The notes under the pieces were generated by a model. It made no database searches and was not told the origin of the DNA. It saw only the letters and a list, made by a program, of their open reading frames with translations. The translations under genes were made by a program, and so were the position numbers. From a virus, in IMG/VR virus record IMGVR_UViG_3300003323_000385, positions 1 to 38,975 of that record: a stretch of DNA of 38,975 nucleotides; one strand, written 5' to 3'. Shown here one piece after another: positions 15,662-26,215 of this stretch. The stretch's first letter is position 1. Each line of letters begins with the position of its first letter.

Positions 15662-15816
15662 TGACATACGCCTGGCCGAGTGCTTCCACGATTCACCCGA
15701 TGCGGTGCGTCGGCGAAACGCGCGCTGGCGAGCGATGTAAGCGCCGCCACTGGATCACGATTCACGAAGCTCCGAACGGATGGCGTTGCCATCACCACAG
15801 TAATCTGGGGCGATGA
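15661..15816 (+). CDS. Small Cys/His zinc protein (51 aa)
   Basis: A 51-residue ORF starting at ATG 15661 in a TGATG overlap and ending at TGA 15814-15816, overlapping the MuF-like start. RCVGETRAGERCKRRHW and WRCHHH give the pattern C-x9-C-x16-C-HHH, matching a family of tiny phage and bacterial proteins with C-x-G-T-x-x-G-x-x-C and a later C/H pair. It probably binds one zinc. Function unknown. Confidence 0.6.
   Translation: MTYAWPSASTIHPMRCVGETRAGERCKRRHWITIHEAPNGWRCHHHSNLGR
15801..15806 (+). promoter_or_regulatory. Leaderless -10 box before the MuF-like gene
   Basis: TAATCT, six bases (ggggcg), then ATG 15813. No good -35. The ggggcg might alternatively act as a very close Shine-Dalgarno. 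Confidence 0.4.
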
Positions 15817-17096
15817 TCTCCCCCACTCTCGGCGCGAATCTCGCGGAGCCGGTCGCGGACATCTACCGCGACGCGGAGCTGCGCATCTTACAGCGCATCG
15901 CGTGGTCGCTCCAGGCGAACATGGGCGCGTCCGACTGGGACACTCAGCAGCTCATCCGCTTGCAGCGCATCCGTGCCGAGGTCCTGGCCGAGCTGGAGGC
16001 GATCAATCCCGCCGCCGCCAAGGTGATCCGCCTGGCCATCGAGAGCGCCTATCAGGCCGGTGGCCTGTCCGCCTTCGCCGACGTGGGCAGCGCCGTGCCG
16101 CACATCCCTGCGAACCCCGACCAGCGCGCCGCCGCCGTCGTCGCGTTCGCCGCTGACGCAACCCGGGCTATGGCGTCCAGCCAGGGGGCCATCCTCCGGG
16201 CCGTGGACGACGTATACCGCGACGTAATCGCCCGGGTGGCAGCCCAGACCGTGACGGGCGTCATCAGCCGCCAGACGGCCGTACAGAGCGCGCTCGATGA
16301 CTTCCTGGCCCGGGGCATCACCTACGTGCCGACACGCCGAGGTCGGATGACCCTGGCCGACTACGCGACCATGGCCGTGAGAACCGCCACCGTGCGCTCC
16401 GCGATCTCCGGCCAGGTGGACACGCAGCGGCAGATGGGGCTCGATCTCGTCGTGATCCACCCCGGCCCGCGACCGTGCGACATCTGCGACCAGTGGGCGC
16501 GCTCGATCCTCACGACCGGCAGCCAGGTCGGCCGCCTCATGCTCGACAACATCGGCGGCCCCGGCATGGTGTCCGTGACCGTCGATGCCACCCTGGATGA
16601 GGCGCGCGCCGCAGGGTGGGGCCACCCCAACTGTCGGTGCGGCCTGCACACCTACCTGCCCGGCGTGACACGCCCGGACATCATCGAGCGCCCCGAGTGG
16701 GATCAGGCGGGCTACGAGGCCCAGCAGCGCCAGCGCGCCATCGAGCGCCAGATACGCGCCGCCAAGGTGCAGCAGGCCATCGCCGTCACCGAGGAGGAGA
16801 AGGCCGAGCGCGGCAAGCGAGTGAAGGCGTGGCAGCGTGCCATGCGCGAGCACCTGGACGCCCAGCCGGACCTCAAGCGCCAGAGCGCGCGCGAGCAGAT
16901 CACCGGCACACCTGACGCGAACCTCACGCCGTCGCGCCCGCTGCGGCCGACGCCCGACGCACCCAAGCCGCCGACACCCTCGCCGGTCGGCGTGGACGCG
17001 CGCGCGATGTCGAACGCCCAGAAGGTCGAGGCGGCGGCGATCATGTACGGCACCGACTCCCGCGAGTACCGCGAGGCCAAGCGGCGCTGGAGCTGA
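15813..17096 (+). CDS. MuF-like minor capsid protein
   Basis: A 427-residue protein placed between portal and scaffold, the usual site of Mu gpF-like minor head proteins that sit inside the capsid near the portal. The first 200 residues are helical. The MuF-type motif is clear: GPRPCDICDQWARS (C222, C225), then AAGWGHPNCRCGLHTYLPG (H271, C274, C276). The C-terminal 130 residues are charged and helical, then Pro-rich. No extra toxin domain is recognised. The start is coupled to the small zinc gene (ATGA) and also fits a leaderless start. Confidence 0.88.
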   Translation: MISPTLGANLAEPVADIYRDAELRILQRIAWSLQANMGASDWDTQQLIRLQRIRAEVLAELEAINPAAAKVIRLAIESAYQAGGLSAFADVGSAVPHIPANPDQRAAAVVAFAADATRAMASSQGAILRAVDDVYRDVIARVAAQTVTGVISRQTAVQSALDDFLARGITYVPTRRGRMTLADYATMAVRTATVRSAISGQVDTQRQMGLDLVVIHPGPRPCDICDQWARSILTTGSQVGRLMLDNIGGPGMVSVTVDATLDEARAAGWGHPNCRCGLHTYLPGVTRPDIIERPEWDQAGYEAQQRQRAIERQIRAAKVQQAIAVTEEEKAERGKRVKAWQRAMREHLDAQPDLKRQSAREQITGTPDANLTPSRPLRPTPDAPKPPTPSPVGVDARAMSNAQKVEAAAIMYGTDSREYREAKRRWS

Positions 17097-17099
17097 GGA

Positions 17100-17225
17100 T
17101 GGAGTGGCCGCCTGGGACTCGAACCCAGATGACGGTATCCGGCTGACCGCGGGACTCACCATGCGCCTGGTGCCCGGGGTAGGTTGCAACGCCCGCCGCG
17201 CCTCTGCCATTGAGGTAGCGGCCAC
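17100..17225 (-). tRNA. Aberrant tRNA gene with about 49 extra nucleotides
   Basis: On the minus strand GTGGCCGC (17225-17218) pairs with GCGGCCAC (17111-17104), an 8-bp acceptor stem, followed by T and an encoded CCA (17102-17100). U8-A9 and a canonical D arm, CCTC-AATGGCA-GAGG (17215-17201), are present, as is a canonical T arm, CTGGG-TTCGAGT-CCCAG (17128-17112). Between D and T arms lie 72 nt (17200-17129) instead of about 23. This insert contains a strong hairpin (CACCA/TGGTG enclosed by CGGG/CCCG). No perfect anticodon arm is seen; TTGCAAC (GCA, Cys) and ATGGTGA (GGT, Thr) are weak candidates. It may be a real, intron-bearing, class II-like or degenerate tRNA. Confidence 0.6.
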
Positions 17226-17234
17226 TCGATGGGC

Positions 17235-17240
17235 AGTATA
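17235..17240 (-). promoter_or_regulatory. -10 box for the minus-strand tRNA
   Basis: Minus-strand TATACT nine bases before the tRNA 5' end, within GTTTACTGCTATACTG, which resembles the leaderless promoters at 7327 and 9714. Transcription would start at or within a few bases of the mature 5' end. Confidence 0.5.
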
Positions 17241-17304: not shown

Positions 17305-18159
17305 ATGACGGATGCCAGCGGCGCGACGGGATCGGGCCAGGGCACGGGCGGCAGCTCGGATGCCGGACAGGCGCAGGGCGCACAGGCCACACAGGGAGGC
17401 GCAGCGGCCGATCAGGCCCAGCAGACCCAGGGTGCCCAGGCGACCGGCCAGGCCGCCACCGGGCAGGCCCAGGGGCAGCAGGCGCAGGCTCAGCCCAGCG
17501 AGGGCGACGCCTACCTCGCGCAGCGCTTCCCCGGATTCGCGAACTTCCCGGCCGAGGCGCAGGCCGCGCTCCGGGCGCGCAACGAGGAGGCCGCGCGCTA
17601 CCAGCGCGAGGCCGGGGACCAGCGCATCAACGCCAAGAACGAGGCCGCCCAGAAGGGTGCTCGGGAGGCGCTGGCGCAGGCGGCCAAGCTCGCGGGCCTG
17701 GACATCCCCGGCCTGACCGACGCTAAGGAGGGTGAAGGCGACCCCAAGGCGCTGGCCACCCAGATCACCTCGGTGACGGGCGAGCGCGACACGGCCATGC
17801 GGGAGGGTGCCGCGTACCGCGCCGCGCTCCTCGCGATGATGCCGGGCACCGACGCCGAGAAGGCCGACGCGCTCGACTTCCTGGCGTTCAAGCTCCAGCG
17901 AGATGCCACCTACTCCGGGGACCCCACGGATTCGGAGTATGGCGCTAAGCTGTCCGCGACGGTCACCAATCTGGTGGCCGCCGATTCGAGGTTCCGGGCG
18001 CAGTCGGGCACTGCGCAGACCTCGGGCGTGGAGAACCTTGGCGGGTCCAACGGTCAGAACGCGATCACAAGCGAGCAGTTCAACCGCATGTCGATGGGCG
18101 AGCGGCAGCAGCTCAAGACCAACGATCCCGAGACGTATCGCCGTCTCGTCGGCGCGTAA
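17305..18159 (+). CDS. Capsid scaffolding protein
   Basis: A 284-residue protein directly before the major capsid gene. The first 65 residues are a Gly/Gln/Ala/Thr low-complexity tract. The middle is a long charged coiled-coil (ALRARNEEAARYQREAGDQR, later EALAQAAKLAG), and the C-terminus (TSEQFNRMSMGERQQLKTND) matches the basic helical end that many scaffolds use to bind the coat protein. Scaffolds direct procapsid assembly and leave before or during packaging. Shine-Dalgarno gagagga precedes the ATG. Confidence 0.85.
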   Translation: MTDASGATGSGQGTGGSSDAGQAQGAQATQGGAAADQAQQTQGAQATGQAATGQAQGQQAQAQPSEGDAYLAQRFPGFANFPAEAQAALRARNEEAARYQREAGDQRINAKNEAAQKGAREALAQAAKLAGLDIPGLTDAKEGEGDPKALATQITSVTGERDTAMREGAAYRAALLAMMPGTDAEKADALDFLAFKLQRDATYSGDPTDSEYGAKLSATVTNLVAADSRFRAQSGTAQTSGVENLGGSNGQNAITSEQFNRMSMGERQQLKTNDPETYRRLVGA

Positions 18160-19101: not shown

Positions 19102-19713
19102 ATGGCTCCGATGAACCCCCTGTACGCGCAGGTCCACGGGCTCGATGCCTCGGCCGACCTGGACGACGTGGACGTGGACGCCACCCCGGCATCGGGCGTG
19201 ACGGTCATCCCCTCGGAAATCCAGGCGGCCGTCGCTGAGGCGAAGGCTCGGCACGCTGCCGAGATCGACGCCATCGTGAACGGATACCCGGCCCCGAACA
19301 CCTCGGGCGTGGCCAACACCACGGCGGGCTCTCCGAACACGTCGGACGACCAGGCCGATTCCACCGACGCGATCCCCACCGGGGTCGCGGGCGTGAACCC
19401 GGGCAACGAGCCCGGCACGTCGGGCACGGACGGCAACGGCCAGGACGAGGGCGGCCCCAAGGCGTCCGAGCTGGACGGCGTGGCAGCCGCCAACGGTGTC
19501 ACGCCCGCGGCGAACTCCCAGGAGGTCGAGGAGGTGGCCACCGCCACCCCCGAGGTCAGCACCAAGCACGGTGACCTGGAGCGCCCCGGCAAGACCGCCA
19601 GCACGGACGACTGGGTGGCCTACGCCCAGGCCGACCCCGAGGGCGAGCCCTTCGACCTCACCCCGCGCACCGGTCTGCGCGACGACATCGCCAAGCACTA
19701 CCTGGGGGAGTAA
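19102..19713 (+). CDS. Low-complexity acidic protein after the major capsid gene
   Basis: A 203-residue protein with a strong Shine-Dalgarno (aggaggaaa). It is rich in Thr, Ser, Asn, Gly and Asp over residues 55-150 (PNTSGVANTTAGSPNTSDDQ) and probably disordered there. The C-terminus (GDLERPGKTASTDDWVAYAQ, later TGLRDDIAKHYL) looks like a short folded tail also seen after coat genes in other actinophages. Position suggests a head-associated role, but no enzymatic motif is present. Confidence 0.65.
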   Translation: MAPMNPLYAQVHGLDASADLDDVDVDATPASGVTVIPSEIQAAVAEAKARHAAEIDAIVNGYPAPNTSGVANTTAGSPNTSDDQADSTDAIPTGVAGVNPGNEPGTSGTDGNGQDEGGPKASELDGVAAANGVTPAANSQEVEEVATATPEVSTKHGDLERPGKTASTDDWVAYAQADPEGEPFDLTPRTGLRDDIAKHYLGE

Positions 19714-19730
19714 CCTTCTCCCACCGACAG

Positions 19731-19771
19731 GGGGCCGGGCTGGACGCAGAACATCGCTCCGGCTCGGCCCC
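19731..19771 (+). terminator. Attenuator-like hairpin after capsid genes
   Basis: GGGGCCGGGC (19731-19740) pairs with GCTCGGCCCC (19762-19771), ten pairs with one G:T, followed by TTCC. It may cut transcription of connector genes relative to the capsid gene. A very similar hairpin lies at 22292-22319. Confidence 0.5.
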
Positions 19772-19790
19772 TTCCACGTCTGGAGGACCC

Positions 19791-20297
19791 ATGCCCGTCT
19801 ACGCCACCGCCGCCGAGCTTGCCACCTACATGGAGCCGGACGCGCCGGAGCCGCCCGCTGTCCCGCGCGCCACCGTGCTGCTGCGCGCCGCCTCTGAGCT
19901 GGTGCTGGACGCCACGGCCGCCGCCGTCTACGTCACCGACTCGGACGGCATGCCCACCGAGCTGCACACCCTCACGGCATTCAAGGCCGCGACGATGGAG
20001 CAGGCGAGCGCGTGGGCTGCCCACGGCATCGACCCGCGCAAGGGGGCCGCAGGCGTCGGCCGTCGCGTGGCATCCAAGGGCCTCGGGGGCGCGACCGTGA
20101 GCTACGTGGCCGACCCGGCCGCCGACACCTACCTGAGTGACCTGGCCAGCGGTGCCGCGCTCGTCACGTCGGCCTGGCGCATCCTCCGCAACGCCGGACT
20201 GATCTCCAACCGGGTTGAGACGGGCGCGGGTGGCCACGAGCGATTCAACGTCGCCCAGCGCACCTACGACCCCGTGGCTGGGACGTACACCCCATGA
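19791..20297 (+). CDS. Head-to-tail adaptor protein
   Basis: A 168-residue helical protein (YATAAELATYMEPDAPEPPA, ATVLLRAASELVLDATAA, LHTLTAFKAATMEQASAW) with the helix pattern of HK97 gp6/SPP1 gp15-like adaptors that bind under the portal. The first connector gene after the capsid, with ctggagga Shine-Dalgarno, and an ATGA overlap with the next gene. Confidence 0.8.
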   Translation: MPVYATAAELATYMEPDAPEPPAVPRATVLLRAASELVLDATAAAVYVTDSDGMPTELHTLTAFKAATMEQASAWAAHGIDPRKGAAGVGRRVASKGLGGATVSYVADPAADTYLSDLASGAALVTSAWRILRNAGLISNRVETGAGGHERFNVAQRTYDPVAGTYTP

Positions 20298-20650
20298 ACG
20301 CCGCGGAGGAGTGGGAAGAGCTGTTCGCCGAGTGGGGCAATGACGGCGAGGGCAACCCGCTACCGCTGACCGTCCGGACCAAGACGGGCGGCGGCCAGAT
20401 GGGTGGATCATTCGCGAATCCGCGCAAGCTGCCGGGCCTGCCCCAGGTGCCGGACATCAAGCTGGTGCGGACGGCGGACGGGAACCAGCGGACGGCTCAG
20501 ACGGCCGTCTACGCCCCGCGGGACCTCGCTGAGCACTTCACCCTCGGGAGCCGCGTTACGCTCGCTGACGGCCGCGAGAGCACCGTCCTGGGGGTGCAGA
20601 CGCCCGACACCCTCGGACTGTTCGCCTTCGTCATCGTCCGGGTCGAGTGA
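20294..20650 (+). CDS. Head-to-tail stopper/connector protein
   Basis: A 118-residue protein. The second half is beta-rich (RTAQTAVYAPRDLAEHFTLG, then SRVTLADGRESTVLGVQT) like SPP1 gp16-type stoppers that seal the portal after packaging. Position after the adaptor and before the gp10-like gene supports this. ATGA overlap upstream, and its stop overlaps the next start. Confidence 0.7.
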   Translation: MNAAEEWEELFAEWGNDGEGNPLPLTVRTKTGGGQMGGSFANPRKLPGLPQVPDIKLVRTADGNQRTAQTAVYAPRDLAEHFTLGSRVTLADGRESTVLGVQTPDTLGLFAFVIVRVE

Positions 20651-21030
20651 TGGGCGCGGTCTGGCAGGGTGCTGACGCCATGATGGCCAAGCTCCGACAG
20701 GTGAAGGAGCGCAAGACGCAGGGGGCTCGGAAGGGCCTCCAGCTCGCGCTGCGCAACGTGCTGAACGAGTCCAACCGCCAGGTGCCCCACGAGGAGGGCG
20801 ACCTGGAGCGGGATGGCGGTATCTCTATGGAGGGTGACAAGCTCCGCGGGGCGGTGAGCTACGGCCGGAACGAGCAGACGCGCGAGTACGCCGTGGTGCA
20901 GCACGAGGACATGACCCTGAATCACGACGCCGGGCGTAACGCCAAGTTCCTGGAGAACGCATTCAACTCGACGCGCGACCAGAACACCGAGATAGTGGCC
21001 GCCGCGATCCGGCGAGAACTGGGGGCATGA
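20650..21030 (+). CDS. Neck/tail-completion protein (HK97 gp10-like)
   Basis: A 126-residue protein starting at ATG 20650 (TGATG overlap; GTG 20647 also in frame). Helical start (AMMAKLRQVKERKTQGARKG), then VPHEEGDLERDGGISM and YAVVQHEDMTLNH, the pattern of the HK97 gp10/minor neck family in which a helix is followed by GxLxxS-like and YAxxxHE segments. It acts at the head-tail joint. Confidence 0.75.
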   Translation: MGAVWQGADAMMAKLRQVKERKTQGARKGLQLALRNVLNESNRQVPHEEGDLERDGGISMEGDKLRGAVSYGRNEQTREYAVVQHEDMTLNHDAGRNAKFLENAFNSTRDQNTEIVAAAIRRELGA

Positions 21031-21524
21031 TGCTTCGATCCTTCGAGCTGGACCTGCAACTGGGGGTAGCCAACCTGCTGGCCGACAACCCGGCCGCCAG
21101 CGTGCCCCTCTGGAGCGAGTACAGCGCCGTCTGGGATGAAGAGGCCGAGAGCTACGTGCCGAACCCGCCGCGCCCGGCCGACGCCGTGGCCATCTACATC
21201 GATTCGTACGACGACGCGGACACCACCGTGGGGCCGTACGTGGTGGTCAGCGAGTACAGCGTGGACGACTCGGATGGCTCGGCACCCGTCGTCGGGGTGC
21301 AGTTCACGATCCGCGCCGAGGACATCGCCATGCTCAAGGCGATCACGTCCGACATCTACGCCCTACTGCACATGAGGTGGGGCGGTATGCTAGGCCCCGT
21401 CACCCTGGTGACGGCCTCTCGCTCGTCGGGCACGAGGACGGGGCAGGACTCGAGCAACCGGCAGGGCCGGATCGAGAACTACTATCTGCGGGTCTACCGA
21501 TCCACACCGAACCGGCAAGAGTGA
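21027..21524 (+). CDS. Tail terminator protein
   Basis: A 165-residue protein with alternating strands and helices (AVAIYIDSYDDADTTVGPYV, VVGVQFTIRAEDIAMLKAIT, SDIYALLH) as in lambda gpU/SPP1 gp17-like terminators that cap the tail tube. Its place immediately before the major tail protein agrees. The ATG at 21027 overlaps the previous stop; ATG 21030 is the alternative. Confidence 0.78.
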   Translation: MMLRSFELDLQLGVANLLADNPAASVPLWSEYSAVWDEEAESYVPNPPRPADAVAIYIDSYDDADTTVGPYVVVSEYSVDDSDGSAPVVGVQFTIRAEDIAMLKAITSDIYALLHMRWGGMLGPVTLVTASRSSGTRTGQDSSNRQGRIENYYLRVYRSTPNRQE

Positions 21525-21535
21525 AAGGCACACAC

Positions 21536-22276
21536 ATGAGCATCCCCGTGTTCACGCCCCTGGGGGCTAGCACGACCAACCGCAAGTGGGCTCTGGACGT
21601 CGAGGACCCGGACGAGCCCGGCGTCTACGTCGGCGTCCGCGGCATGCAGGAGGGCAAGCCGCGCCCGTCCGATGCGACGACCCAGGACGACAGCGACCTG
21701 GACGGTGAGGGCTACGGCTCCGACACCGTGACCGGCCTTCGCTGGGGCTTCGACGGCAAGCTGCTGCGCAAGACGGTGCTGGGTGATCGCACGTCGTACG
21801 ACCGGGGCCAGGAAATCCTGCGCAAGGTCGCGCGCACGGTCGGCGGCATCCTCAAGTTCCGCTACTACGAGATGGAGCCGGACGGCCCCCGAGTCGAGGC
21901 GTACGAGGGCTACGGCGTCGTCACCTGGGCACCGGACGGCGGCAACCAGGAGTCCCTGGACTCGGTGGCTTTCTCGGTCAAGGGTCGCGGCAAGCCCACC
22001 GAGATCGAGCACCCCGAGGCGCAGGCCGCGGTCCCCGTCGTCACCCGCATCGAGCCCTCGGGTGCTGGTGCTGGCGATCCCGTCGTCATCAAGGGCCACC
22101 GCTTCCCGGCTGGCTCCACCGCCGCCTCGCTCGTGAAGTTCGGCGGCACCAACGCCGCCAGCGTCCTGGTGACCGACTCCGAGACGATCCTGGCCACGCT
22201 CCCCGCGGGCGACGCCGGGCTCGTCCTGGTCAAGGTCGGCACCGGAGCGGACTACACGTACACGCGCGGCGCGTAG
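21536..22276 (+). CDS. Major tail protein with C-terminal IPT/TIG domain
   Basis: A 246-residue tail-tube protein behind gtgaaagg. The N-terminal 160 residues have the tube fold features (NRKWALDVEDPDEPGVYVG, LRWGFDGKLLRKTVLGDRTS). Residues 165-245 form an Ig-like IPT/TIG module (VVTRIEPSGAGAGDPVVIKG, later SVLVTDSETILATLPAGDAG). Such Ig domains decorate tail tubes and can bind cell-surface sugars weakly. The start at ATG 21536 is chosen on the Shine-Dalgarno; the longer in-frame extension overlaps the terminator gene. Confidence 0.88.
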   Translation: MSIPVFTPLGASTTNRKWALDVEDPDEPGVYVGVRGMQEGKPRPSDATTQDDSDLDGEGYGSDTVTGLRWGFDGKLLRKTVLGDRTSYDRGQEILRKVARTVGGILKFRYYEMEPDGPRVEAYEGYGVVTWAPDGGNQESLDSVAFSVKGRGKPTEIEHPEAQAAVPVVTRIEPSGAGAGDPVVIKGHRFPAGSTAASLVKFGGTNAASVLVTDSETILATLPAGDAGLVLVKVGTGADYTYTRGA

Positions 22277-22284
22277 TTCACCGC

Positions 22285-22290
22285 TACACT
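22285..22290 (+). promoter_or_regulatory. -10 box after the major tail protein gene
   Basis: TACACT followed by the hairpin at 22292-22319. Part of the 19-base element shared with 10696-10714. Without a visible -35 this is tentative. Confidence 0.3.
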
Positions 22291-22291
22291 G

Positions 22292-22319
22292 GGGGCGGGG
22301 TCCATTCGGGCCTCGCCCC
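22292..22319 (+). terminator. Attenuator-like hairpin after the major tail gene
   Basis: GGGGCGGG (22292-22299) pairs with CTCGCCCC (22312-22319), eight pairs with one G:T, followed by TTCC. It mirrors the hairpin after the capsid genes. Confidence 0.5.
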
Positions 22320-22340
22320 TTCCGCATACCTGGAGACGTG

Positions 22341-22844
22341 ATGCCCGAGCCGATGGACGACCTGTTCAGCTTCCTGGACGACGACGCCCTGACCATCCCC
22401 CACCCCATCAAGAGCACCAAGCACCCCGAGGGCAAGGTGTACTCGATCCCCTACCCCGACGCCGAGACGGGCCTGCGGCTGACGGCCCTGGCCGAGATCG
22501 GGCGGAAGGTCGAGCAGCGCCGCCGCGGCGACCGGAACGTGAAGATCAGCGCGGCCGAGGCGGGCCGCCTGGTCATGGACGACAAGGATGAACGCGAGTT
22601 CGCGATGCAGGTCCTCGGCGAGACGTACCAGGAGCTGATCGATGACGGCGTGCGCTGGCCGATCATCCAGAGGCTCGTCCAGTACGCATACGTCTACTTC
22701 GCGATGGGGGCGAACGCGGCCGAGAACGCGGCGCGGGACGGTCTGTTCACGGGGGGAAAAGCGTTCGTCCCGGCGAACCGATCGGAGCGCCGGGCGGCAG
22801 CGAGTGGCAAGACTGGAACGCGCCAGACCCAGAAACGGGGCTGA
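22341..22844 (+). CDS. Tail assembly chaperone, short form (gpG-like)
   Basis: A 167-residue helical protein between major tail and tape measure genes, where lambda G-like chaperones lie. They coat the tape measure protein during tail assembly. Features include FSFLDDDALTIPHPIKST and FAMQVLGETYQELIDDGV, WPIIQRLVQYAYVYFAMGAN. The start is ATG 22341 (GTG 22338 also in frame). A slippery GGGAAAA at 22754-22760 permits a -1 shift into the T-like frame. Confidence 0.85.
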   Translation: MPEPMDDLFSFLDDDALTIPHPIKSTKHPEGKVYSIPYPDAETGLRLTALAEIGRKVEQRRRGDRNVKISAAEAGRLVMDDKDEREFAMQVLGETYQELIDDGVRWPIIQRLVQYAYVYFAMGANAAENAARDGLFTGGKAFVPANRSERRAAASGKTGTRQTQKRG

Positions 22845-23143
22845 GGCGGTTCGAGGACGGCCCAGCGAGCTCTGGGCCGCGCATCACCTGGTACGACATC
22901 CTGCGCGCCTGGGGTGCCGTCGAGCAGGACCTGCACGAGCGCTACGGGATCGACCTTCGCGAGCCCGGGCTGATGCGCTCACGCTCGTGGCGCTGGCTTG
23001 AGGTCCGGGTGCTTGGGCTACTATCGGTTGACAGAGGGCCGACCGGACTGGGAGGCTCCCGGCTCCAGCGGGCTCTGTCGCCGACCAAGCACCCCAGCAC
23101 GCTCCCGGTATTCCTGACCAAGGCACCGGAGAGGTCCGACTAG
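22341..23143 (+). CDS. Tail assembly chaperone, frameshifted long form (gpGT-like)
   Basis: Joining 22341-22760 to 22760-23143 by -1 slippage gives about 267 residues. The added part has typical T-domain sequence: SEWQDWNAPDPETGL, ITWYDILRAWGAVEQDLHER, YGIDL, then RSWRWLEVRVLGLLS, ending KAPERSD. In lambda the GT fusion is made at a few percent and recruits the tail tube protein to the gpG-coated tape measure. No good independent start exists for the second frame, which supports frameshifting. Confidence 0.82.
22754..22760 (+). promoter_or_regulatory. Slippery sequence for -1 ribosomal frameshift
   Basis: In the chaperone frame the codons are ACG GGG GGA AAA GCG, so G-GGA-AAA (22754-22760) is a canonical X-XXY-YYZ heptamer, close to lambda GGGAAAG. 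A -1 shift enters a frame open to 23143. Confidence 0.85.
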
Positions 23144-23168
23144 AGCCGACGAGGGAGGCCCGCACCAC

Positions 23169-25436
23169 ATGGCGCTTGATCTCGGCACCCTGACCGGATA
23201 CCTGGAGTTGAACGATGGCCAGTTTGACTCGGTAATCGACGGCCTGCCGGACAAGCTCTCTGGTGCGGGCGTCCTCATGGGCGTGGCCGCCACGGCAGTG
23301 GCCATCGGCGTCGGCGCGGCGCTCTCGAACGGGCTGAATCAGGCCATCGAGCTGGACGACGCACGGCACAAGATCACGGCCCAGCTCGGCCTCACCGAGG
23401 AGGAGAGCGCCCGCATCGGCGGCGTCGCCGGAACCCTGTTCACGCAGGCGTACGGCGAGAGCGTCGAGGAGGTCAACACCGCGGTGCAGAACGTCGTGTC
23501 CAGCATCGACGGGATGCGCGGGGCCACCGAGGAGTCGCTGGAGGCAATGACGGCCAAGGCGCTCAACTTCGCTTCGGCGTTCGAGATCGACACGGCGCGC
23601 TCCACTCAGGTGGTCGGGCAGCTCATCAAGACCGGCCTGGTGGCCGACGCAAACGAGGGGTTCGACCTCCTCACCTCGGCCATGCAGAAGGTCCCCGCCG
23701 CGGTGCGCGAGGACATCATGGACGCGGCCGACGAGTATGGGCCGTTTTTCCAGGCGGTCGGACTGAACGGCACCGAGGCATTCGACCTACTGGTGCGCAG
23801 CTCCGAGAAGGGCATGTACGGCATCGACAAGGCCGGTGACGCGCTCAAGGAATTCGGCATCCGGGCCACCGACATGTCCACCACGTCCGCACCCGCGTTC
23901 GAGTCCATCGGCCTAGACCAGCAGGAGATGGCGAACAAGCTGCTGGCGGGCGGGGAGACGGCAAACCAGGCGTTCGATCAGATCGTCTCGGGGCTCCAGA
24001 GCATCCAGGACCCCGCCGAGCGCAGCAACGCCGCCATTGCTCTGTTCGGCACGCCCCTGGAGGACCTGGGCGTGAACGAGATTCCCGCCTTCCTCTCCAG
24101 CCTCCAGGACCTCGGCGGCGGCATGGAGGATGCCGCGGGGGCCGCCGACCGCATGGGCGAGGACATCAACGGGTCGGCCAAGGTCGGCTGGGAGCAGCTT
24201 TCCCGCACTTGGGACTCGATCATCGGTCAGCTCGGCGCGGGCCTGCTGCCCGTGCTCTCCCAGGTGATCGACTTCCTGAACCAGAACCCCGAGATTCTGG
24301 TGGCCGTCGCCACCGGGCTCGGCATCATGGCCGTGGCCCTCGGCGTCGCCGCCGCCGCGCAGTGGGCGATGAATAGCGCGATGCTTGCCAGCCCGCTCAC
24401 GTGGATCATCCTGGCCGTCGTCGCGCTCGTCGCGGCCATCATCGCGCTGGCGATGAACTGGGACGCCGTGGTGGCCCTCATCAGCGATGTCTGGGACGGC
24501 TTCGTGTCGTGGTTCACCGGGGTGATGGACGGCTTCCTCGGCTGGTGGGATGGTATCTGGCAGGGCTTCCTCGGGTTCCTCAACGACGCCTGGGCGAACA
24601 TCACGGCCGCCATCGGGGCGGCGCTCGTCTGGATCGTGGACCTGTTCATGAACTGGACCCTGCTGGGCCTGCTGATCCAGTATTGGGACCAGATCGTGGG
24701 CGGCGCGACGGCGGCATGGAATGGCCTGATCGCGTTCTTCCAAGGCATCCCCGGGTGGATTCTCTCGATCTTCGTCTCTGCGGGCGTCTGGCTCATCCAG
24801 ACCGGCTCGAACATCCTCAACGGCCTGCGCTCCGGCGTCGAGAACGGCTGGAACGCGGTCTGGGGATTCATCTCCGGCATTCCTGGCTCGGTGATGGGGT
24901 TCTTCTCCAACGCGGGCTCGTGGCTCGTGAACGCTGGTCGCTGGATTCTCGACGGCCTCCTGTCCGGGCTCCGTGCTGCGTGGGACGGCGTGACCGGCTT
25001 CATCGGCGGGATCGGCGACTGGATCGCGGAGAACAAGGGACCCGAGGCGTACGACCGGCAGCTGCTGGTGCGCCACGGTGGCTGGATCATGTCGGGCCTC
25101 CAGAACGGCCTCATGGACGGATTCGAGGACGTGCAGAGTCAGGTGGCATCCATGGGTGCCGACATCGAGGCCAGTTTCGGCGCTCCCGCGCTCAATGTGC
25201 GCGCCGGTAACCTGATGGGTGCCGATGACATTTCGGCCGCCAGCGGGGCGTACAGCGCCGCAGGCGGTGGGTACACGGCCGGTGACCCCCTCACCGAGCG
25301 CGAGCAGGACCGCTGGGACCGCCTCACGCAGGAGCTTGCGGACCTCTCCGAGACGGTACGCAGCGCGCGGGGAATCACCGTCAACTCGAACGACCCCGAG
25401 GAGGTCGCTGTGGTGGTTGCGGAGCACCTGCGATGA
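23169..25436 (+). CDS. Tape measure protein
   Basis: A 755-residue protein that sets tail length; this length implies a tail of roughly 110 nm on the usual scaling. Helical N-terminus (GYLELNDGQFDSVIDGLPDK), a long hydrophobic stretch between about 375 and 600 (VATGLGIMAVALGVAAAAQW, LTWIILAVVALVAAIIALAM), repeated Trp-rich segments (WDGFVSWFTGVMDGFLGWWD) and the conserved GPEAYDRQLLVRHGGWIMSG near the C-terminus. Shine-Dalgarno gggagg precedes ATG 23169. No lysozyme or peptidase domain is obvious. Confidence 0.93.
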   Translation: MALDLGTLTGYLELNDGQFDSVIDGLPDKLSGAGVLMGVAATAVAIGVGAALSNGLNQAIELDDARHKITAQLGLTEEESARIGGVAGTLFTQAYGESVEEVNTAVQNVVSSIDGMRGATEESLEAMTAKALNFASAFEIDTARSTQVVGQLIKTGLVADANEGFDLLTSAMQKVPAAVREDIMDAADEYGPFFQAVGLNGTEAFDLLVRSSEKGMYGIDKAGDALKEFGIRATDMSTTSAPAFESIGLDQQEMANKLLAGGETANQAFDQIVSGLQSIQDPAERSNAAIALFGTPLEDLGVNEIPAFLSSLQDLGGGMEDAAGAADRMGEDINGSAKVGWEQLSRTWDSIIGQLGAGLLPVLSQVIDFLNQNPEILVAVATGLGIMAVALGVAAAAQWAMNSAMLASPLTWIILAVVALVAAIIALAMNWDAVVALISDVWDGFVSWFTGVMDGFLGWWDGIWQGFLGFLNDAWANITAAIGAALVWIVDLFMNWTLLGLLIQYWDQIVGGATAAWNGLIAFFQGIPGWILSIFVSAGVWLIQTGSNILNGLRSGVENGWNAVWGFISGIPGSVMGFFSNAGSWLVNAGRWILDGLLSGLRAAWDGVTGFIGGIGDWIAENKGPEAYDRQLLVRHGGWIMSGLQNGLMDGFEDVQSQVASMGADIEASFGAPALNVRAGNLMGADDISAASGAYSAAGGGYTAGDPLTEREQDRWDRLTQELADLSETVRSARGITVNSNDPEEVAVVVAEHLR

Positions 25437-26215
25437 CGCGCGTGGTGATCGAGGAGAAGGCCAATCCGGCCAACTCCCTCACGCTCGTGAACCGCTCCGA
25501 GTCGCTGATGCAGGGGCCTGCCGTCCAGGATGAGTGGTATCTGCGCGTCGATGGGCTCGATGACGCCTGGTACTCCCCGCCCGACAGTCGGGCCGAGCTG
25601 GAGGAGGACCCTGGCAACGATGGGGCATTCTGGCCCGACGAGTACCTGCTGACCTCGCGCACCTTCCCCATCCGCGGCGGGCTCTGGACGCGCAGCAGCT
25701 CGCTGTCGCAGGCCGCCGCGCGCTCGCGCCTCGCGCGCCTGCACAACCGGCCGCTGCGCATCCTGGTCGAGGATGAGCTGGGACCCCGCTGGGTCGAGGG
25801 GTTCAGCCGCCAGCGGCCCATCGTCACGCGGCCGTCGATTCACCGCGTCGAGTTCACCCTGTTCATCTCGTGCCCCAGCCCGCTCAAGGTCGGCCGCGAG
25901 GCACCCTTTCCCGTGCAGAACGGGATTGCCCGCGTCGAGAACGCGGGGGACTATCCCACCTGGCCCACCTTCCGTGCCAGCGGACTGGTGACCGTCCTGG
26001 CGTCGGAGTTCCAGGGCCACGTCTTCGCCTGGGCGGGGCTCTCCACTACAGGCATCACGCTCGACCCGCAGACTGGGATCGTGACCAACGGGCTCGGCGA
26101 CGAGATCGGCGGCATCCAGGTGGACGATGTGTACCGCATCCCGCCCGGCGCACACGAGATCGTCGTGGAGTCTGACGCCCCCGTGACCGTGGGGGTGCGT
26201 CCCGGATGGCTCTAG
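25433..26215 (+). CDS. Distal tail (Dit-like) minor tail protein
   Basis: A 260-residue protein directly after the tape measure, the position of Dit, the hub that joins tube to tip. It opens with strands (TRVVIEEKANPANSLTLVNR), has GGLWTRSSSLSQAAARSRLA-type insertions and a C-terminal galectin-like beta region (NAGDYPTWPTFRASGLVTVL, then AHEIVVESDAPVTVGVRPGW), the NxGxxxxxPxixxxG motif being typical of Dit proteins. ATGA overlap upstream; overlaps the next gene by ten bases. Confidence 0.82.
   Translation: MTRVVIEEKANPANSLTLVNRSESLMQGPAVQDEWYLRVDGLDDAWYSPPDSRAELEEDPGNDGAFWPDEYLLTSRTFPIRGGLWTRSSSLSQAAARSRLARLHNRPLRILVEDELGPRWVEGFSRQRPIVTRPSIHRVEFTLFISCPSPLKVGREAPFPVQNGIARVENAGDYPTWPTFRASGLVTVLASEFQGHVFAWAGLSTTGITLDPQTGIVTNGLGDEIGGIQVDDVYRIPPGAHEIVVESDAPVTVGVRPGWL

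Follow-up and report, generated by a model that had tools for sequence, protein, structure and literature searches.

A tRNA-like RNA with a conserved domain in place of the anticodon arm in an actinobacterial virus and in Microbacterium phages

Genomic context and layout of the element

The window, i.e. the whole stretch of 38,975 nucleotides analysed here, belongs to a virus of soil-type actinobacteria and carries a tRNA-like element on the minus strand at 17224-17104. The main reading frames of the surrounding late region are all on the plus strand, and the element, although intergenic, is on the opposite one, as the preliminary description of this DNA had stated. The features of the locus are the following:

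15813-17096, plus strand: MuF-like minor capsid gene, assigned by synteny and similarity with Microbacterium phages; its stop codon adjoins the 3' end of the element, which is encoded on the other strand
17305-18159, plus strand: scaffold-like gene, the next after the element in the late operon, assigned by synteny with Appa and DelaGarza
17235-17240, minus strand: TATACT, candidate -10 hexamer
17104-17224, minus strand: tRNA-like element of 121 nt with a 7-bp acceptor and C17104 as discriminator, recognised from the sequence, from its homologues in SallyK, Nike and Hubbs and from covariation
17218-17224, minus strand: 5' strand of the acceptor stem, TGGCCGC
17201-17217, minus strand: U8 A9 (17217-17216) and D arm CCTC-AATGGCA-GAGG (17215-17201), with GG in the D loop
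17129-17200, minus strand: 72-nt non-decoding domain replacing the anticodon arm and the variable loop
17181-17199, minus strand: invariant strand GCGGCGGGCGTTGCAACCT
17147-17179, minus strand: covarying hairpin in which 7 bp are followed by a 3-nt bulge in the 3' strand (17156-17154), by another 5-6 bp and by the loop
17133-17145, minus strand: invariant strand CAGCCGGATACCG
17112-17128, minus strand: T arm CTGGG-TTCGAGT-CCCAG
17105-17111, minus strand: 3' strand of the acceptor stem, GCGGCCA
17100-17103, minus strand: TCCA following C17104

Read directly on the minus strand, the order is TGGCCGC-TA-CCTC-AATGGCA-GAGG-(72 nt)-CTGGG-TTCGAGT-CCCAG-GCGGCCA-C, then TCCA. The D loop keeps A14, G18, G19 and A21 and the T loop is TTCGAGT, the anticodon arm being the only part of a tRNA that is missing; in its place, 72 nt (17200-17129) separate the D and T arms, a spacing already noted before, as against about 23 nt in a normal tRNA. 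The 39-kb window contains a single 5-bp TTCRANH T arm, which is that of the element (0.15 expected). The 8-bp acceptor previously described holds in part, since pairing can be extended in the window to 8 bp (17225/17104) and even to 10 bp (17227/17102), but the acceptors of the relatives are of 7 bp. Likewise, the encoded CCA is present as part of TCCA, which would read as U73-CCA only with an 8-bp acceptor, but SallyK, Nike and Hubbs encode no CCA, and the window TCCA may or may not be functional.

On the upstream side, TATACT (17240-17235) ends 8 nt ahead of the 10-bp stem and is the sole TATANT on either strand of the window. A transcription start 7-8 nt downstream of it is predicted at about 17228-17226, coinciding with the foot of the acceptor stem. 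No match to a -35 element was found for TATACT, a situation that is common for actinobacterial promoters. The uniqueness of the hexamer thus strengthens the suggestion of a dedicated promoter, which we treat as a candidate.

A structure conserved with compensatory changes in Microbacterium phages

Our blastn searches of phage records with this region retrieved the same element, unannotated and intergenic, in the Microbacterium phages SallyK and Nike (Squashvirus) and in Hubbs, which is of a different lineage; no useful close relatives of the window virus were found in IMG/VR. Leaving the acceptor ends aside, the alignment needs a single gap, of 1 nt, in the D loop. The SallyK and Hubbs elements have 111 identical nucleotides but unlike acceptor stems (GGGCAGG/CCTGTCC and GATGCGG/CCGCATC, respectively), and that of the window (TGGCCGC/GCGGCCA) is a third type. 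Across the homologues, six of the seven acceptor pairs are changed on both sides and three of the five T-arm pairs are compensated, the D arm contributing one further compensatory pair, with 100% of cells paired in all three helices; the hairpin within the 72-nt domain adds four compensated pairs, about 95% of its cells being paired. Over the whole alignment 97.7% of cells are paired and 14 pairs are changed on both sides, compared with 4.7 in shuffles, none of 500 shuffles reaching 14, and slid controls collapse. On these pair counts, a conserved RNA structure is established by the very comparison with relatives that the preliminary description had proposed, and both its canonical acceptor stem, U8-A9, D arm and T arm and its separate hairpin in the insert are upheld. 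By energy alone the window fold is not exceptional (z -1.5); it is because of its conservation with compensatory change in other phages that the element has to be regarded as more than chance.

The SallyK element is matched by the Rfam tRNA model RF00005 with 41.1 bits, above the threshold of the model, 59 nt being skipped at the anticodon, and the D arm of SallyK and Hubbs is letter-for-letter that of the host (actinobacterial) tRNA-Lys(CTT), which on this resemblance is a likely origin. The same identity, together with the failure of tRNA finders to see anything in the window, could be taken to indicate a decaying tRNA pseudogene, a reading that we regard as highly improbable: it is contradicted by the compensatory changes in the acceptor, the T arm and the inserted hairpin and by the invariant strands described below, all of which require ongoing selection.

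Absence of an anticodon arm

ARAGORN called neither a tRNA nor a tmRNA in the window and Rfam called no family there, the element falling below the RF00005 threshold with a T-arm fragment as the sole match. Neither of these standard tools recognises the whole as an ordinary tRNA, a possibility that the preliminary description had raised against its own proposal. Three readings had been offered there: an intron-like insertion, an extreme variable arm and a tRNA mimic. The first, an ordinary tRNA interrupted by an intron of 48-49 nt, takes its appeal from the excess length and from a CGCGG pentamer at both ends, removal of the span being expected to leave a normal tRNA. We addressed this by brute force over all single internal deletions leaving a tRNA-length core, in the window and in SallyK, and none of them yielded a canonical anticodon arm, i.e. 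a 5-bp stem with a 7-nt loop conforming to Y32-U33-R37; in the positive control, 10 of 10 centred host tRNAs passed the anticodon-arm test. The two CGCGG copies do exist (17200-17196 and 17151-17147, at an offset of 49 rather than 48), but the relatives lack the repeat, the first copy being located in a conserved strand and the second, which is absent in the relatives, in the 3' strand of the covarying hairpin, and the direct repeat was therefore rejected as an insertion scar, being a boundary that is not conserved. In addition, no curated model of a catalytic intron, group I or other, was matched in Rfam, and the sister loci contain no intron-less tRNA but other non-decoding elements instead. 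The chances of the intron reading are accordingly next to nil.

Just as slim are those of a class II-like tRNA that would still decode and whose very long variable arm would account for the length of the middle and for its hairpin: neither the 72 nt of the window nor SallyK contains a contiguous anticodon arm with a 5-bp stem and a 7-nt loop including U33. The selenocysteine type, with its 8-bp acceptor and UCA anticodon, likewise presupposes an intact anticodon arm, and the relatives' acceptors are of 7 bp. Of the attributes of a decoding tRNA, the element has the 7-bp acceptor, the D arm and the T arm with the conserved loop bases but lacks the anticodon arm. The tRNA mimic is thus the only one of the three readings to survive, the acceptor, D and T arms covarying and relatives at the same loci carrying other non-decoding middles. 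In summary, the acceptor, the D arm, the T arm and the D/T-loop contact bases are under selection, and the anticodon arm is replaced by a conserved 72-nt domain that is unable to read codons.

The 72-nt domain

The domain is identical to that of SallyK and Hubbs at 51 of its 72 positions. All 19 positions of the first invariant strand are the same in the window, SallyK and Hubbs, and so are all 13 of the second, a conservation that amounts to one comparison, the window against the rest, since SallyK, Nike and Hubbs, three of the four phages known to carry the domain, scarcely differ in it. Invariant strands around a hairpin that differs and is compensated are what a structured RNA maintained by selection would show, and suggest, at the level of the alignment, that the domain is selected for its own sequence.

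Pattern scans of viruses and genomes yielded only chance matches, and the domain was seen in no further virus or genome searched. A domain model run over 396 Micrococcales genomes gave two weak matches, both without tRNA arms, and the full-length model re-found only ordinary tRNAs; the IMG/VR matches to half-patterns of the domain also lacked tRNA arms and were treated as chance, and the plasmid search returned only T-arm-like matches in enterobacteria. Within the window virus' own genome, complementarity to a possible antisense target is no longer than 11-12 nt, and no target or protein partner of the element was found. Several viral contigs share, with small changes, the conserved stretch TTGCAACCTTCTGGATACCGCAGGACCGCTGCGACGCCGGATACC, in positions and flanks unrelated to the element.

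Other tRNA-like elements at the same loci

In sister phages the position of the SallyK element, flanked by the SSB gene and by MazG or resolvase genes, is occupied by tRNA-like elements of other kinds, whose acceptor stem is the same or similar and whose T arm is intact. In Squash and related phages the D loop contains a hairpin and the closing loop is short; the anticodon loop of Kelcole, Marcie, Tempo and Fregley has 6 nt, and Fizzles has a middle of yet another kind. At the Hubbs position, before the primase/polymerase gene, the middles of Lupine, Wolfstar, Alleb, Erenyeager, Necrophoxinus and RunningBrook have loops of 6, 7 (without U33) or 8 nt. Thus, at fixed loci the acceptor and the T arm are kept and the decoding part is not. 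The acceptor stem of SallyK is that of its own locus, and because of this it seems that recombination within the conserved sequences of the D and T arms has swapped the interior.

Some of these elements are annotated as tRNA-Ser, -Tyr, -Lys, -Ile or tRNA-OTHER and others bear no annotation at all. Those called tRNA-Ser gga, tRNA-Tyr ata, tRNA-Lys ttt, tRNA-Ile aat and tRNA-OTHER have loops of 4, 6 or 8 nt, or loops without U33. Judged by such sequences, the phage tRNA annotations at SallyK- and Hubbs-type loci are probably wrong. A strong GC-rich hairpin without a T run is located directly upstream of the element in Squashvirus (L004, 2164-2111, minus strand, and homologous positions) and in Necrophoxinus and RunningBrook; were the RNA cut at the acceptor stem, this hairpin could shield the resulting 3' end.

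Minimal 43-nt elements in early gene blocks

A T-arm scan of the Streptomyces phage phiCAM revealed a dispersed element of 43 nt made up of a 5-bp acceptor, an 11-nt GGCA-containing mimic of the D loop and a 6-bp T arm. In the model built from 22 copies, 100% of cells are paired and 44 cells are changed on both sides, a figure equalled by none of 500 shuffles. The model finds 10 copies in phiCAM, 6 in Chucky and 8 in the mycobacteriophage Damien, and in Hubbs, Lupine and Wolfstar it detects copies within the terminal repeats. The early gene blocks concerned, in which the elements are unannotated, each have a covarying 5-bp acceptor stem and are often followed by a hairpin, are:

phiCAM 44550-49597, minus strand
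Chucky 44916-48783, minus strand
Damien 19280-25550, plus strand

Hubbs, Lupine and Wolfstar have one minimal element per terminal repeat besides the element before the primase gene; in Hubbs it is at 1102-1144 on the minus strand, with a copy at record positions 61501-61543. An independent scan of IMG/VR with a pattern that left the acceptor free gave 69 occurrences in 44 stretches, and all 69 have five of five acceptor pairs, drawn from nine stem types, five being a number never reached by slid controls. In bacterial genomes such elements are rare (4 of 297).

The window element is itself hit by the minimal model (28.6 bits, E 2.8e-4 over 308 kb), mainly via the T arm. This weak match suggested that the 3' half might fold alternatively as a mini-element (with GGUC/GGCC paired in the window and GACAG/CUGUC in SallyK), an idea that was dropped because Hubbs cannot form such a fold. 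With a covarying acceptor and T arm and no anticodon arm, the window element is part of a wider non-decoding tRNA-like set in actinobacterial phages, in which it represents a subtype with a long domain; the SallyK, Hubbs and minimal elements lie between genes of their own strand, and the window copy between genes of the opposite one.

These positions bear on the leading alternative for the function of the elements, namely that they punctuate transcripts, as tRNAs do in mitochondria. In this case they would be RNase P/RNase Z cleavage signals between genes, the 72-nt domain would be a passenger and the antisense copy of the window would have been displaced. In phiCAM, Chucky and Damien, the minimal elements fill 22 of the 27 gaps of at least 60 nt in the early gene blocks, always on the gene strand and between stop and next start, mostly 7-15 nt past the stop codon and about 40 nt ahead of the following start. 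A hairpin of at least 5 bp begins within 2-5 nt after 15 of 23 minimal elements, compared with 5.5% of random positions, and could protect the new 5' end; a few of these copies repeat one another, so that the counts are not wholly independent. The gene-strand, intergenic placement in SallyK and Hubbs fits as well. Therefore, the arrangement supports punctuation well for the minimal elements, but it is at odds with the window copy, which cannot separate the late genes because those genes run on the plus strand, and which has its own candidate promoter; moreover, the invariant strands of the 72-nt domain are left unaccounted for. As an explanation of the window element, we consider punctuation unlikely, though worth serious attention.

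Possible function

The element of the window is very probably a non-decoding tRNA-like RNA. As to what it does, we give a slight preference to a tRNA-body RNA of about 121-125 nt that displays a trans-acting domain. In the window, TATACT would serve this RNA as a promoter of its own, antisense to the late genes, and the SallyK and Hubbs RNAs would be cut out of the operon transcript. Host RNase P, RNase Z or exonucleases and the CCA-adding enzyme would treat this RNA as a tRNA, and such processing would give it well-defined ends and protect it from nucleases. On this natural tRNA scaffold the hairpin would hold the two invariant strands, and the domain so displayed would act in trans on a partner. 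One RNA body is found in three contexts: it separates SSB and MazG genes in one, precedes a primase/polymerase gene in another and, in the third, lies antisense with MuF and scaffold genes on its two sides; therefore it is the RNA itself that is kept and not any single neighbour, which favours a trans-acting RNA over a neighbour-bound function. Against the scaffold stands the fact that sister elements carry short loops in place of the domain, so the domain is not needed for a class-wide function, for which RNase P/Z processing of transcripts is plausible. It is tempting to combine both proposals into a system in which short elements cut operon transcripts between genes, one lineage has swapped the anticodon arm for a conserved domain so that the host tRNA machinery makes and protects a phage regulatory RNA, and the window carries a stand-alone, promoter-driven copy; we put this forward tentatively, its chances being somewhat below even.

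It can also be speculated that the elements are decoys which, as tRNA mimics, bind tRNA-directed host factors (anticodon nucleases, tRNA-targeting toxins or synthetases) without offering an anticodon loop to cut. No relative indeed retains an unaltered anticodon loop, escape from tRNA-cleaving defences has been suggested for phage tRNAs whose anticodon loops are altered (PMC10264068), and Hubbs also encodes an RNA ligase and a polynucleotide kinase. However, known anti-defence phage tRNAs still decode, which these elements cannot do, and the minimal elements are intergenic repeats without the whole lower half; furthermore, there are no RNA repair genes among the listed SallyK features and none were identified in the window, which was inspected without a profile search. 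We therefore hold an anti-defence role to be improbable. The two Hubbs genes are side by side at 45592-47855, as a possible RNA-repair pair.

Comparison with known RNAs and significance

tRNA-like RNAs are a known kind, with tmRNA, viral tRNA-like structures, mascRNA and YrlA among their members. With a canonical tRNA (RF00005; the nearest host gene is tRNA-Lys(CTT)) the element shares the acceptor stem, U8-A9, the D arm, the T arm and the D/T-loop contact bases; it differs in having a 72-nt structured domain instead of the anticodon arm, in receiving no ARAGORN call and, in the window, in scoring below the Rfam threshold. tmRNA has a tRNA-like acceptor and T arm and no anticodon, as the element does, and the minimal 43-nt elements resemble it further in lacking the D stem and having a GG-containing D-loop mimic. 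However, the element is far shorter (121 nt), has no mRNA-like frame or tag and keeps the D stem in its long form, and it is thus no tmRNA. The bacterial Y RNA YrlA (RF02553) is also a noncoding RNA with a tRNA-mimic module, but its T arm comes first, and its model matches SallyK with 17.1 bits against a threshold of 69 and the window not at all. The 3' tRNA-like structures of plant viruses, the TMERs of murine gammaherpesvirus and mascRNA are RNAs that use tRNA processing enzymes without decoding; in contrast to these, the phage element occurs in tailed bacterial phages, stand-alone or intergenic, and has the anticodon arm swapped for a conserved domain. Engineered tRNA-scaffold RNAs offer a parallel in design, since their tRNA body stabilises an RNA that has been inserted where the anticodon arm would be; the phage element is natural and its stabilisation presumed.

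Phage elements of this type, tRNA-like and without an anticodon, did not appear in our search of the open-access literature, which leaves most subscription journals outside. If our interpretation is correct, a tailed phage provides a natural case in which a tRNA body bears an RNA domain, and this RNA belongs to a larger set of tRNA-like elements without an anticodon that annotation misses or mislabels as tRNA-Ser, tRNA-Tyr, tRNA-Ile, tRNA-Lys or "tRNA-OTHER". This bears on why phages keep odd "tRNAs", some of which may serve RNA processing or carry regulatory RNA rather than translation. As laboratory hosts were used to isolate SallyK, Nike, Hubbs, phiCAM and Damien, the predictions are directly testable. 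In line with these elements having gone unnoticed, a 2024 paper on Camvirus phages reported no tRNA genes in Kamino (PMC11536984).
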